42,941 nt of DNA from Tissierellales bacterium (GTDB lineage: Bacteria; Bacillota; Clostridia; Tissierellales; Dethiosulfatibacteraceae): assembly GCA_016938195.1 (NCBI GenBank), contig JAFGVC010000052.1:1-42941 (forward strand), read 5' to 3'. The notes beneath the pieces are model-generated. The model saw only the letters and a list, made by a program, of their open reading frames with translations. It made no database searches and had not been told where the DNA came from. The position numbers and the translations under genes are program-made. This document shows positions 14,852 through 19,222 of this stretch, one piece after another (position 1 is the first letter of the stretch; the number at the start of each line of letters is the position of its first letter).

Positions 14852-15846
14852 TTCCTTTTAAACAAGCCTGATGCTTTATAATTTATAATCCTCTCCGCAA
14901 TTTTTTCTGCGTTGTGGCGCACATAGTTTTTCTCAATATCAAGAAAATTATCCTTAATAATCTTGATATTTTTGTTTTTCAAATAAGCCTCTTGTTCTTC
15001 ATCTAAAAGTATTTGTCTTGAATTTTGAGCCCCATACAAATTTTGAATCTCTTCATCAACAATTTCATCGTTTACCACGATATAATCAATTCTTAACTGA
15101 TTTGAGTGCCGAAATATAGCTTCAAGGTGATCTCTAACATTATAGTCATCCGTCTCGCCGCTTTGCGTCATTAAATTGCAAATGTAAAAAACTTTTGCCT
15201 TAGATTTACTAATAAGCTCTGGGATATCATCCACAAGCAAGTTAGGAATGATGCTTGTATACAAGCTTCCCGGACCTATCAAAATGATATCAGCCTCTTC
15301 AATCGACTTGATGGTTTCACTTAAAGGCTCACAAAAATTTGGAACAAGATTGATTTTTTTAATTCTGTCGCCGGTTTTCTTAACGTACTCCGGAATGGTA
15401 TTTTCGCCGAATATACTGTCGCCACTTTCAAGCTCAGCTACTAAATTGGTGTCCTCAAGTGTCATTGGCAATACTTGACCTTTAATTTTAAAAATATTTC
15501 CTAATTCCTTTAAAGCATGTTCAAAATCACCATATATCTCATTCATAGCTGCAATAAATAGGTTTCCAAAGCTTTGACCTTTTAGATAGCCCGCTCTAAA
15601 ACGATGTTGCATTAAGCTCTCTATAATAGGTGGCGTGTCCGCCAAGGAAATAATACAGTTTCTAATATCCCCCGGCGGCAACATGCCTAAATCCTCTCTT
15701 AAAACGCCCGATCCTCCACCATCATCCGCAACCGTTACAACGGCTGTTATATTGTCGGTTTCTTTTTTTAAGCCTCTTAGAATAATGGACAAGCCTGTCC
15801 CTCCTCCAAGAATAACGACTTTTTTATTTTCTTTTCCTGCTATCAT
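14848..15846 (-). CDS. yvcK: YvcK/CofD-like gluconeogenesis factor
   Basis: A 332-residue member of the YvcK family, homologous to the CofD phospholactate transferase. In Bacillus YvcK binds UDP-sugars and is needed for growth on gluconeogenic carbon and for cell shape. Signatures are the nucleotide loop VVILGGGTGLS (GGGTG at 14-18), VADDGGGSG, the PPGDIRNC motif, and GPGSLYTSIIPNL. I choose the ATG at 15846, which overlaps the GNAT stop as ATGA. A GTG 12 bp earlier is crowded by the GGGAGA site. It is co-transcribed with the GNAT-like gene and converges on ptsH. Confidence 0.94.
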   Translation of the reverse strand: MIAGKENKKVVILGGGTGLSIILRGLKKETDNITAVVTVADDGGGSGVLREDLGMLPPGDIRNCIISLADTPPIIESLMQHRFRAGYLKGQSFGNLFIAAMNEIYGDFEHALKELGNIFKIKGQVLPMTLEDTNLVAELESGDSIFGENTIPEYVKKTGDRIKKINLVPNFCEPLSETIKSIEEADIILIGPGSLYTSIIPNLLVDDIPELISKSKAKVFYICNLMTQSGETDDYNVRDHLEAIFRHSNQLRIDYIVVNDEIVDEEIQNLYGAQNSRQILLDEEQEAYLKNKNIKIIKDNFLDIEKNYVRHNAEKIAERIINYKASGLFKRN

Positions 15847-16265
15847 TCGTTGCAGCACTCTCCCTCAATATCTCCGTGCTTATAATACATATCTTCATCA
15901 TGAAAATTCTTATTTGCCAACTGAAAACCTAATTCTTTATATAAATCAATTCGTTCTTTTGATGGTTTGGCATAAATGCCTTGAGCGCCCATATCAGATG
16001 CCTTGCGAATCATTAATCTCAATGCCAAGTCATAAATTTCAATGTTTTTGTCTTCTTCTTCAATCCAGATTCCCGTAATTTGAAACAAGCCGTTCACAAG
16101 CTCTAATCTTCCGTAGGCCATAGGTTTTTTATTGTCAAAAACAACTAAATTATAGCTAAACATATTCTTAAAATCAGCCCTATCAAAGCAATCCTTGCCT
16201 TGAGTTATTAGAGCGTCTAATACTTCACTCCGTTCATCAAATCTGTACCATTTACTTTTTATCAT
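15843..16265 (-). CDS. GNAT-like N-acetyltransferase
   Basis: A 140-residue protein with a GNAT-like layout: a central strand pair FSYNLVVFDNKKPMAYGRLEL, a following ITGIWIEEEDK, a long helix DLALRLMIRKASDMG, and the C-terminal signature YAKPSKERIDLYKELGFQ typical of the last GNAT strand-helix. The acetyl-CoA loop usually written R/QxxGxG/A is not clear, so activity is unproven. The ATG at 16265 has GGAGGAA 3 nt upstream. It overlaps yvcK by 4 bp (ATGA) and is read from the promoter at 16291-16319. The substrate is unknown. Confidence 0.75.
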   Translation of the reverse strand: MIKSKWYRFDERSEVLDALITQGKDCFDRADFKNMFSYNLVVFDNKKPMAYGRLELVNGLFQITGIWIEEEDKNIEIYDLALRLMIRKASDMGAQGIYAKPSKERIDLYKELGFQLANKNFHDEDMYYKHGDIEGECCNE

Positions 16266-16283: not shown

Positions 16284-16312
16284 TTGATTTATTAAAATAG
16301 ATGTGGTATATT
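16284..16312 (+). promoter_or_regulatory. Promoter of the TM1266-like/ABC importer operon
   Basis: TTGATT (16284-16289), a 17-bp spacer, and TATATT (16307-16312) preceded by TGG make a strong extended -10 promoter. It would start transcription near 16319 and leave a leader of roughly 190 nt. It physically overlaps the opposite promoter at 16291-16319. Confidence 0.65.
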
Positions 16313-16319
16313 AAATCAA
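16291..16319 (-). promoter_or_regulatory. Promoter of the GNAT-yvcK operon, interlocked with the plus-strand promoter
   Basis: On the minus strand TTGATT (16314-16319), a 17-bp spacer and TTTAAT (16291-16296) form a promoter. The two -35 elements belong to an 8-bp inverted repeat TTGATTTA (16284-16291) / TAAATCAA (16312-16319), and each promoter's -10 lies in the other's spacer. Only one polymerase can occupy the site at a time. Confidence 0.6.
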
Positions 16320-16464
16320 AACAACGTTATTTTTTTAACAATCTCTGAGCTTAAGGTTAGTCTGAAGGCAAGGAAGTCATCCTGTTAATTTTATAAAGGG
16401 ATTTATTCCTTCATAATTTTAACACACAAATCGTCTTTCATCCACAAGATGTTTTTGGAATGAT

Positions 16465-16497
16465 ATCCTTACTGACAATGAGTAAGGATTTTTATTT
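16465..16497 (+). terminator. Terminator/attenuator hairpin in the leader of the TM1266-like gene
   Basis: ATCCTTACT (16465-16473) and AGTAAGGAT (16481-16489) form a perfect 9-bp stem with a 7-nt loop, followed by TTTTATTT (16490-16497). The ribosome site GGAGGAGC comes immediately after, at 16498. A terminator in the leader, downstream of the promoter at 16284-16312 and just ahead of the first gene, implies regulated read-through. The upstream leader holds alternative pairings, for example TGAAGG (16363-16368) or AAGGAA (16370-16375) with overlapping parts of TTCCTTCA (16406-16413). No known riboswitch core is recognisable to me. Confidence 0.6.
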
Positions 16498-16510
16498 GGA
16501 GGAGCACTTT

Positions 16511-16765
16511 ATGAACAGAATAGGCGTCATAGGAATAATTGTAGAAGATTTATCCGCTACAAACAAAATTAATGAAATATTGCATGCTTATAGTCACATC
16601 ATTATAGGTAGAATGGGACTCCCTTACAAAAATAGGAGCATCAGTGTCATTTCTCTGATTGTTGATGGCACTACAGATGAGATTGGTGCTCTAAGCGGCA
16701 AGCTCGGATCATTAAAAGGTGTCACTGTCAAAAGCGCCTTGACAAAAAATTCGTATATCGATTAA
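16511..16765 (+). CDS. TM1266-family putative regulator ('iron-only hydrogenase system regulator')
   Basis: A protein of 84 residues with the ferredoxin-like fold of the TM1266 family, related to the ligand-binding part of NikR/ACT proteins. The conserved run is visible: RIGVIGIIVED at the start, IIIGRMGLPYK near 30-40, SVISLIVDGTTDEIGALSGK near 46-65, and VKSALTK near the end. The family is often named for occurrence beside [FeFe]-hydrogenase maturation genes, but its biochemical role is not established. No hydrogenase gene is seen here. The start at 16511 has TTTGGAGGAG upstream; a longer frame from 16460 would run through the terminator hairpin. The next gene starts 13 bp after its stop. 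Confidence 0.85.
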   Translation: MNRIGVIGIIVEDLSATNKINEILHAYSHIIIGRMGLPYKNRSISVISLIVDGTTDEIGALSGKLGSLKGVTVKSALTKNSYID

Positions 16766-16778
16766 TATGGAGGAAACT

Positions 16779-17762
16779 ATGAAAAAACCAATACTTATTA
16801 TAATCATCGTATTGATATCAATCTTATCACTTAACGGTTGTACAACTGAGGTAGCCCCAACAACGGCATTGGAGCCAGCGAAAGTCACAATAGCCGGACT
16901 AAAAGGTCCAACCTCAATGGGCATGATTAAAATGATTGACGAAAATAAATTAAACAGCGAAAATTATAGTGTAGAATATTTTTCTGAAAGCGCACCTGAG
17001 AATTTAACTGGCAAGATTATCAGTGGTGAGATTCAAATAGCAGCCGTACCAACAAATCTTGCTTCTGTTTTATACAATAAAACAGACGGGAAAATTCAAT
17101 TTTTAGCTTTAAATACGCTAGGTGTTATACATATAGTCGGATCCGCTGAAATTGATAATTTGGCCGATCTAAAAAATGAAACACTTTATATTAGCGGAAA
17201 AGGATCAACACCTGATTATGCCATAAACTATATGCTAAAACAAAATGGCCTTTCCGATTTCGTGTCGCTTGAATTTTTTCCAGATCATGCTTCATTGGCA
17301 CAAGCCGTAGTGGCTAAGGATGCAAAATTAGCTGTTTTACCCCAGCCTTTTGTAACTCAAGTATTGATGCAGTCAGAGGATGTTAAGTTATTGATTGATC
17401 TCAATGAAGAGTGGGCTCACGCGTCGGAAGGCAAAAGTTTGCTTGCCATGGGTTGTCTCATTGTCAACAAGGAATTTGCGGAGAATAATAAGGAATTCGT
17501 TAAAGAATTTTTAACGGAGTACGAGCTTTCAGTCAATTGGGTTAATGAGAATCCTGTAGAAGCTGGCATATTGGTTGAAAAACATGGCATCCTACCAAAC
17601 AGCAAGCTTGCCACTGCCGCAATACCCTATAGTGCAATTGTTTATCAATCAGCCTCTGATTCAAAGACAGAAGTCAATAACTTCTTGGAAATACTGATGA
17701 ACTTTAACCCAAGTTCAGTGGGAGGAGCTTTACCGGATGAGGATTTCTATTTTTCAGAATAA
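16779..17762 (+). CDS. ABC transporter substrate-binding lipoprotein (NitT/TauT type)
   Basis: A 327-residue extracytoplasmic solute receptor. It has a lipoprotein signal peptide with lipobox LNGC and lipidated Cys21, a short linker, then an NMT1/TauA-like two-lobe fold: VTIAGLKGPTSMGM at the start of lobe 1, EIQIAAVPTNLASVLYNK, and PQPFVTQVL. The start at 16779 is preceded by GGAGG; an in-frame ATG at 16767 would be too close to any site. With the following permease and ATPase it forms a full importer. Members of this group carry sulfonates, nitrate, thiamine precursors and others. The binding residues do not let me choose, and the TM1266-like neighbour hints at a metal- or cofactor-related substrate (inference). 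Confidence 0.88.
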   Translation: MKKPILIIIIVLISILSLNGCTTEVAPTTALEPAKVTIAGLKGPTSMGMIKMIDENKLNSENYSVEYFSESAPENLTGKIISGEIQIAAVPTNLASVLYNKTDGKIQFLALNTLGVIHIVGSAEIDNLADLKNETLYISGKGSTPDYAINYMLKQNGLSDFVSLEFFPDHASLAQAVVAKDAKLAVLPQPFVTQVLMQSEDVKLLIDLNEEWAHASEGKSLLAMGCLIVNKEFAENNKEFVKEFLTEYELSVNWVNENPVEAGILVEKHGILPNSKLATAAIPYSAIVYQSASDSKTEVNNFLEILMNFNPSSVGGALPDEDFYFSE

Positions 17763-18501
17763 GAAAAACACTTTTTTCGGGATTTTCATATGGCTTATCA
17801 TTTGGGAGATAGCTTATTTGGCAATCAGCCAAGACATTTATCTCCCTTCTCCTTTCAGCGTCTTGATATCAATGATAGATATTATTCAAGAAAAAGAATT
17901 TTATCGAATCATTGTGATGACTTCTTATCGTGTTTGCTTAAGCTTTTTTCTCTCAGTATTGCTCGGACTTGCAACCGGTCTGATATGTGGCTTAAATCAA
18001 AAAATATTTGAAATATTTGAACCGCTTGTCATTTTAATTCGTTCAACGCCCGTTATCTCCATAATAATTCTCGCAATCATTTGGTTCAAATCCTCCTACT
18101 CTCCTGTTTTTACCGGTTTTCTAATGTGCTTTCCAGTTATATGGACAAATATGGTTCAGGGAATCAGAAGCACAGATACCCGATTACTTGAAATGTGCCA
18201 AATTTACGAAATCAGCTTTTTATCTAAACTTCGACATGTCTATTTGCCATCAGCGCTTCCGTTTATTTTCTCTGGCTTTAGCACTGCTTTAGGTTTAACT
18301 TGGAAAGTTGTTGCCGCTGCTGAGGTTTTATCTTTACCAAAATATGGTATTGGCAGCAAACTTCATGATTCAAAGGCTTATCTTGAAATTCCACAATTAT
18401 TTGCATGGACAACCATCATTATTTTATTAAGCTTTATTTTTGAATTTATATTAACTAGAATTTTTGCTAAAAACTACGCTTATCAGTACAAAGAAGATTG
18501 A
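17737..18501 (+). CDS. ABC transporter permease (NitT/TauT type)
   Basis: A 254-residue inner-membrane protein with about six hydrophobic helices (for example around 12-30, 60-85, 95-115, 120-140, 175-200 and 220-245). It has a BPD_transp_1-type EAA region near 155-185, running from MCQIYEISFLSKLRHVYLP into SALPFIFSG, which contacts the ATPase. The frame starts 26 bp inside the end of the substrate-binding gene, with GGGAGGAG about 9 nt ahead, so translation is coupled. It is the membrane channel of the importer. Confidence 0.9.
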   Translation: MRISIFQNKKNTFFGIFIWLIIWEIAYLAISQDIYLPSPFSVLISMIDIIQEKEFYRIIVMTSYRVCLSFFLSVLLGLATGLICGLNQKIFEIFEPLVILIRSTPVISIIILAIIWFKSSYSPVFTGFLMCFPVIWTNMVQGIRSTDTRLLEMCQIYEISFLSKLRHVYLPSALPFIFSGFSTALGLTWKVVAAAEVLSLPKYGIGSKLHDSKAYLEIPQLFAWTTIIILLSFIFEFILTRIFAKNYAYQYKED

Positions 18502-18511
18502 GGAGATTACT

Positions 18512-19222
18512 GTGATTAAAATTAGTCATCTTTATAAAAAATTTGACGACAAAAAAATATTCGACGATTTTTCATTGGAGATTCCGGAAAAAAAAATTAC
18601 TAGTATATTAGGCCCTTCCGGCATTGGAAAAAGTACTTTATTAAAAGTATTAAGTGGTCTTTCCTCTTTTGAATCAGGTGAAATAATTGGCATCTCAGAT
18701 AAGAAAATCTCATTTATTTTCCAAGAAACTCGATTGATTCCATGGTTAACAGTTGAAGAAAATATCGAATTTGTCTTGAAATCTCAGTATAAAGACGGAG
18801 AAAAAATAAAACTTATTTCACAAAGCATTCTTAATCTTGTTGAACTGATACCGTCAAAAAAACTTTATCCGAAAGAACTCAGTGGAGGAATGAAACAACG
18901 TGTGTCTCTTGCTCGTGCCTTTGCGTACCCCTCTGATATTCTTTTAATGGATGAACCCTTTCAAGGACTTGATTTGAGACTTAAAGAGTCAATTTTGAAT
19001 TCATTTATAAAGCTATGGCATTCAAATAATAAAACTGTCATTTTTGTAACACATGATATTGATGAGGCACTGTTGCTGTCGCATCAAATCTATATGATTG
19101 GACAAGAACCTCTAAAAGTCATTTATCATGAATCCTTCGAAAAAGAACTCTCATTAAGATCAATGCACAATCAAGAGCATATACTATCAAAACAAAAAAT
19201 GCTGTCTCAAATCACAGGCTAA
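18512..19222 (+). CDS. ABC transporter ATP-binding protein (NitT/TauT type)
   Basis: A 236-residue ATPase that powers the importer. Motifs are complete: Walker A GPSGIGKST (K40), Q-loop near 71 (FQETRLIPW), signature LSGGMKQR at 123-130, Walker B ILLMDEP (D147, E148), and switch histidine H181 in FVTHDIDEA. I place the start at the GTG at 18512, because GAGGAG lies 6 nt before it and it gives the normal N-terminus IKISHLYKKF. The longer frame from 18464 has no site and would overlap the permease by 38 bp. It is the last gene of the unit. No clear terminator follows before the ilvB promoter. Confidence 0.92.
   Translation: MIKISHLYKKFDDKKIFDDFSLEIPEKKITSILGPSGIGKSTLLKVLSGLSSFESGEIIGISDKKISFIFQETRLIPWLTVEENIEFVLKSQYKDGEKIKLISQSILNLVELIPSKKLYPKELSGGMKQRVSLARAFAYPSDILLMDEPFQGLDLRLKESILNSFIKLWHSNNKTVIFVTHDIDEALLLSHQIYMIGQEPLKVIYHESFEKELSLRSMHNQEHILSKQKMLSQITG

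Follow-up and report, generated by a model that had tools for sequence, protein, structure and literature searches.

A probable cis-regulatory leader RNA with a switch-like layout, associated with H-cluster maturation genes and a putative importer in Tissierellales

The window analysed here is a 42,941-nt stretch of a Tissierellales bacterium contig in which a TM1266 gene and an ABC importer stand behind a long leader. What is this leader, and does it reveal what the importer carries? The original prediction, made from the letters and open reading frames without database searches, described a leader of about 190 nt that ends in a perfect 9-bp hairpin with a T-run followed by the ribosome site. 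It proposed an orphan riboswitch or attenuator, recognised no known class, listed alternative pairings and suggested that the ligand might identify the importer's substrate. Inspection of the window letters confirmed a ~190-nt leader between an extended -10 promoter and the Shine-Dalgarno sequence, and the hairpin, T-run and ribosome site are as described. The features of the locus are listed below; R1 is a covariance model described further on.

16284-16312, plus strand: promoter-like TTGATT-17-TATATT with TG preceding the -10, from a consensus scan (TTGATT 16284-16289, TATATT 16307-16312)
16324-16341, plus strand: Rex-box-like inverted repeat ACGTTATTTTTTTAACAA, 11/14 consensus positions, just 3' of the -10, from a box scan
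16340-16378, plus strand: conserved RNA motif (putative switch core), R1 match of 41.2 bits, E 6e-7 per genome, with covariation
16344-16374, plus strand: paired part of the motif, with UCU/GGA, GCUU/AGGC and GG/CU helices and GA/AA and AA/GA internal loops between them
16370-16382, plus strand: predicted antiterminator 5' strand AAGGAaGUCAUcC, overlapping the 3' strand of the motif, from the fold of a transcript ending at 16475 and from homologues
16383-16424, plus strand: linker hairpin between motif and terminator, from folding
16414-16453, plus strand: linker block conserved in the window's family only, 87% over 46 bases in G004, from leader comparison
16458-16470, plus strand: predicted antiterminator 3' strand, overlapping the 5' arm of the terminator, from the fold of a transcript ending at 16475
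16465-16493, plus strand: intrinsic terminator, perfect 9-bp stem (arms 16465-16473/16481-16489) and T-run
16498-16504, plus strand: Shine-Dalgarno GGAGGAG, from the window letters, with ATG at 16511
16511-16765, plus strand: TM1266-family protein, NikR C-terminal-like, without a DNA-binding domain (TIGR03959, E 2.7e-35; PF21699)
16779-17762, plus strand: substrate-binding lipoprotein, NMT1/SsuA-like (PF09084; model pLDDT 89)
17737-18501, plus strand: ABC permease (PF00528)
18512-19222, plus strand: ABC ATPase (PF00005)

A terminator scan by itself was uninformative, finding four candidates in the region against 3.1 expected, which is not above chance. The whole-leader fold did better than shuffled sequences (z -2.78, 1/200), and the leader is more than a chance structure because its core is conserved. 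When Rfam was run on 16313-16510, no family matched at gathering score; matches under lax thresholds were noise, the Rfam T-box model had no match in the window leader, and neither the window motif nor its copies at 29 further loci scanned matched Rfam. The failure to recognise a known riboswitch class was therefore upheld by the Rfam scan. The linker block contains a DnaA-box-like TCATCCACAAGATG and matched the dnaA upstream region of G010, a match that we treat as a coincidence of that DnaA-box-like sequence. On the minus strand, a divergent 140-aa gene (15843-16265) without a Pfam or NCBIfam match has homologues that lie divergent and upstream of the motif in ~14 loci.

Covarying stems in homologous TM1266 leaders had been named as a check to make in the absence of an Rfam match. 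We gathered TM1266 genes from 60 related genomes and compared their leaders directly. The core TCTRAGCTYAAGG-N-TCTRAGAGYAAGGA recurs upstream of 10 TM1266 genes in two families. In other families the leader looks different, CCTRATTACRAGG...CCGAGTAAAAGG, and keeps the architecture with different bases. In both types an outer helix of 3 bp is followed by an RA/AA loop, then by a central helix of 4 bp, an RA/RA loop and finally a GG/CY helix. When both were aligned, 96.7% of cells were paired with 23 double changes, and none of 500 shuffles was as good.

The model R1 was built from these aligned TM1266 leaders of both types only. Across 52 distinct sequences, 96.0% of cells were paired, with 76 double changes and no shuffle of 500 as good; the third central pair occurs as UA, AU, CG, GC, UG and GU. 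This alignment was fitted to the model and is hence biased towards R1, yet slid controls and shuffles remained far below it. The consensus hairpin reads CURA-N4-AAGG-loop-CURA-GN3-AAGG, and since each strand reads CURA-N4-AAGG, the duplex is two-fold symmetric. The window copy is not among the strongest: its outer helix has only three pairs, and its core scores below most copies. A riboswitch should have a conserved structured domain with covariation, an expression platform exclusive with the sensor fold and a coherent set of regulated genes; the first of these is met.

Within the order, 43 of the 249 genomes had an R1 match at E<=0.01, and 38 of these were strong. Beyond the order, at E<=0.001, it matched seven further genomes in a sample of the class and 15 in a sample of the phylum, giving 22 loci. 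Nineteen of these precede HydE, HydG, HydF, AspA or TM1266 genes, arranged as TM1266 (followed by HydG, HydE, HydF or an ECF component), HydG alone, HydE-HydG, AspA-HydF, or HydF behind TnpB. NCBIfam confirmed the identities of HydG, HydE, AspA-HydF and HydF behind the motif. Because R1 was trained solely on TM1266 leaders, the copies that lead HydG, HydE and AspA are independent evidence. Four of the 22 matches first seemed to lack an adjoining H-cluster gene. One (G931) precedes HydF with a TnpB gene between; the other three (G377, G541 and G758) have no H-cluster gene in the fetched neighbourhood and are probable false positives.

HydE, HydG, HydF and AspA behind the motif correspond to the published [FeFe]-hydrogenase maturation set, a hyd operon with ammonia-lyase genes in which AspA belongs to the H-cluster maturation pathway (PMC11736057). 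The requirement for a coherent regulated gene set is met. The suggestion that the ligand might point to the importer's substrate thus proved productive, since the same RNA precedes H-cluster maturation genes. RNA regulation of HydE, HydG, HydF or AspA was not found in the literature searched, which gave nothing relevant on TM1266 with riboswitches, on the H-cluster with riboswitches or on absent maturases. An earlier description under another name is not excluded (a 224-motif survey, 10.1093/nar/gkx699, was not compared). We conclude that the leader is very likely a real, previously uncatalogued cis-regulatory RNA, conserved, laid out like a switch and linked to H-cluster supply.

Several motif loci have further peculiarities. 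At L124 an IS605-type TnpB gene is inserted between the motif and HydF. Genomes G030 and G014 carry a second motif copy upstream of HydE (L090, L091), besides the copy leading TM1266-HydG-HydF. A motif-TM1266-importer arrangement (L219) lies on a contig labelled Heimdallarchaeota, which is probably bacterial and has been mis-binned. Some motif-led TM1266 or hyd operons contain small ECF-type substrate components (PF12822; L111:4263-4811, L115:6622-7152, L117:935-1462, and L119); they could possibly be a second transporter of the same compound.

Of ~55 distinct leaders, 46 contain a terminator candidate. Most of these lie 10-103 nt 3' of the motif, although two, those of L115 and L121, are weak or far away. 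About nine motif leaders have no terminator in the scan, which counts against the switch explanation given below. Pairing of the motif 3' strand with the 5' arm of its own terminator averaged -10.8 kcal/mol; with swapped partners the figure was -8.2 (0/500), and with shuffled ones -5.8. In the predicted fold of the window transcript ending at 16475, 16370-16382 pairs with 16458-16470, opening the outer helix of the motif and blocking the terminator. Since the 3' strand of the motif is able to pair with the 5' arm of the terminator, the sensor hairpin, the antiterminator and the terminator are predicted to be mutually exclusive, and the requirement for a platform exclusive with the sensor fold is met by predicted pairing. 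The alternative pairings originally proposed held in part: the one starting from AAGGA (16370-16374), extended to ~16382 and pairing with 16458-16470, is supported by homologues, whereas the segment TTCCTTCA sits instead in the separate linker hairpin 16383-16424. The proposal of an orphan riboswitch or attenuator is supported by the absence of an Rfam match, the covarying structure and the exclusion of the terminator in most homologues; direct ligand binding remains unproven.

The HydG genes of one family (f166) lack a terminator, and here the motif 3' end GGGAAGGAG reads as a Shine-Dalgarno sequence near the start codon. With the Shine-Dalgarno inside the motif strand, control would therefore be translational. 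Taken together, the terminator and Shine-Dalgarno layouts lead us to predict that expression is switched off when the hairpin is stabilised, and transcription attenuation in that direction is likely, with the direction itself inferred.

The promoters carry a second signal. A member of a Rex regulon should have an operator near TTGTTAAN4TTAACAA at its promoter; the window box reaches 11/14, and boxes of at least 11/14 occur in 36 of 56 motif leaders against 3.5 expected from dinucleotide shuffles. This fits the expectation, and Rex control of the motif-led operons is inferred from these boxes without binding data. Such boxes are consistent with hydrogenase physiology.

Our best explanation is an OFF-type RNA switch that represses H-cluster supply genes when supply is sufficient. 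We consider it likely, while ligand, direct binding, OFF direction and transported substrate are all inferred and there are no ligand, probing or expression data. The hairpin with its two symmetric RA/AA internal loops would be the sensor. Once stabilised, it would make the motif 3' strand unavailable, the downstream terminator would form and transcription would stop. When not stabilised, the 3' strand would pair with the terminator's 5' arm and allow read-through into TM1266 and the ABC importer. In the HydG genes with the internal Shine-Dalgarno, the same strand would instead control translation. The putative ligand would be an H-cluster precursor or intermediate bound directly by the RNA; on balance we favour small-molecule sensing by the RNA, direct binding being inferred.

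The window operon represents a second class of motif-led genes, TM1266 with an NMT1-type ABC importer, found in Sedimentibacter and in the window's family, which has Dethiosulfatibacter aminovorans as a named member. The TM1266 protein scored 120 bits against a curated TIGR03959 cut-off of 60.8. An NMT1/THI5-like importer is recognised by an NMT1 family match and a Tau/Ssu-type fold, and both were found: the nearest solved folds to the predicted binding protein are 3hn0, PqqT and TauA, and SsuA is also similar. In six genomes (G012, G022, G028, G041, G052 and G059) a binding-protein gene lies directly 3' of HydA, followed in most by permease and ATPase; these relatives are more distant (E about 1e-60). 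Operons of the order HydA - binding protein - permease - ATPase were also seen in other families of the order (L257, L258, L259, L260, L262), with no R1 motif detected ahead of them.

Importer-bearing genomes of the window's family and Sedimentibacter encode several [FeFe]-hydrogenases, and the HydA motifs TSC(S/C)P, MPC..K..E and C.GGC..GGG are intact in those checked. Genome searches found no HydG, HydF or HydE above cut-off in nine importer genomes that are >=95% complete (G000, G001, G004, G025, G038, G049, G186 (S. hydroxybenzoicus), G187 (S. saalensis) and G201); G004 has one weak HydE-like match and G187 an estimated contamination of 7%. HydA genomes without maturases, among them those of the cultured Sedimentibacter saalensis and S. 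hydroxybenzoicus, are a puzzle in their own right. G057 and G191 keep HydE and HydF, lack HydG and have the ABC importer. G519 has HydE and HydF without HydG, as judged by HydG search and operon, with an ECF component in place of the ABC importer. HydG is possibly the first maturase to be lost.

The binding protein was present in 14 of 16 genomes with HydA and no HydF, compared with 12 of 30 with both (p=0.002). Counted by genus the association was weaker (9/10 versus 10/21, p=0.027). The sample was 60 genomes picked by kinship and not by importer, with hand counts from tables; kinship means that the genomes are not independent observations, and genes can be absent from draft assemblies. Among 42 further importer carriers reached by name, of which at least three duplicate earlier genomes, all have HydA and 24 lack HydF. 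An importer of H-cluster material should be present where HydA lacks maturases, and this was met. There are exceptions: importer carriers G008 and G047 had no HydA match at E<1e-50, and G007 and G043 have HydA without HydF yet no importer match. Import cannot be only a replacement, because many genomes hold both importer and maturases. In the proposed explanation, the importer would bring an H-cluster precursor into cells without HydE, HydF and HydG. On this point we see the evidence as balanced; transport and binding of an Fe-CO-CN compound are inferred.

The alternative that survives best is that the importer carries an ordinary nutrient (sulfonate, a thiamin precursor or the like) and that its link to hydrogenase genes comes from shared redox regulation alone. 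The binding protein belongs with NMT1/SsuA/TauA, a fold that does not reveal the substrate, and the Rex-like boxes could account for co-regulation. Against this, the importer has the H-cluster-specific RNA motif, several genomes carry it immediately 3' of HydA, and it is over-represented in genomes without maturases. We rate this alternative as a real possibility, though less likely than not.

Alternatively, the leader could be a protein-binding attenuator: a dimer of TM1266, or of another protein, would bind the two-fold symmetric hairpin and thereby autoregulate its operon. TM1266 is the first gene behind most motif copies, the symmetric RNA consensus suits a protein dimer, and the annotation of TM1266 is that of a putative regulator of the hydrogenase system. 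However, some copies lead HydG, HydE or AspA-HydF operons in which TM1266 is not the first gene (its presence genome-wide was not assessed), and the TM1266/NikR_C domain is not known to bind RNA. We find this explanation unlikely.

A DNA operator for a transcription factor, with the direct repeats CTNAGNNNAAGG, is practically ruled out. The halves are near-direct repeats close to the start site, but their central four bases covary as reverse complements (GC, CG, AU and UA at one position), their spacing varies, some families have the motif further downstream from the promoter, and the motif 3' strand complements the terminator arm of its own leader. The covariation of the central bases, which is that of an RNA helix, is our reason for rejecting the DNA reading. 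An ordinary promoter-proximal terminator without sensing, which chance could yield in AT-rich DNA as a terminator-like hairpin, can be virtually dismissed, as families retain both the conserved hairpin upstream and the pairings that exclude one another.

The RNA switch that we prefer can be set beside known systems. The Moco RNA motif (PMC2408646) likewise leads biosynthesis and transport genes of a metal cofactor and is a proposed cofactor sensor, but it concerns another cofactor, has no sequence or structure match here in Rfam, and the present core is much smaller (~35 nt). The NMT1 motif/xanthine riboswitch (PMC8266621) and the TPP riboswitch had no Rfam match in the window at gathering score or E<=10. 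Both classes can precede NMT1/THI5-type ABC importers. The PyrR binding site (RF00515), also an antiterminator/terminator attenuator, gave a sub-threshold match in two leaders; at 17.5-19.5 bits against a 54-bit threshold, and with no pyrimidine-biosynthesis gene among the neighbours examined, we attribute it to chance. PqqT (9b1v) shares the fold of the window binding protein and binds the redox cofactor PQQ in intact form, which sets a precedent for importing cofactors, but the two are 14% identical and the substrate of the window protein cannot be read from the fold. To our knowledge no earlier RNA sensor has been tied to the H-cluster, and this would be the first.

Since the motif stands ahead of genes that make the cofactor and, in bacteria unable to make it, of genes that apparently import it, some microbes may acquire the H-cluster or a precursor from outside. 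Uptake is chemically plausible because synthetic [2Fe]adt, supplied from outside to E. coli cells, activates HydA without HydE, HydF or HydG (PMC6984386). That artificial maturation likewise uses a ready-made diiron complex from outside, but the complex is synthetic and no dedicated transporter appears in the relevant sections of that work, whereas a natural importer is proposed here. A bolder reading, towards which we are more sceptical than inclined, is that some bacteria have lost HydE, HydF and HydG while keeping several [FeFe]-hydrogenases, and that their neighbours provide the [2Fe] cofactor or an Fe-CO-CN synthon, taken up by the dedicated ABC importer (elsewhere perhaps an ECF transporter), governed by a new riboswitch class that would sense that compound. 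It makes the testable claim that an organometallic hydrogenase cofactor or its precursor is shared between cells. If true, HydA activation without the three maturases would be relevant to biotechnology, and H2 production in maturase-less Sedimentibacter and its relatives would depend on their neighbours, which would bear on syntrophy.
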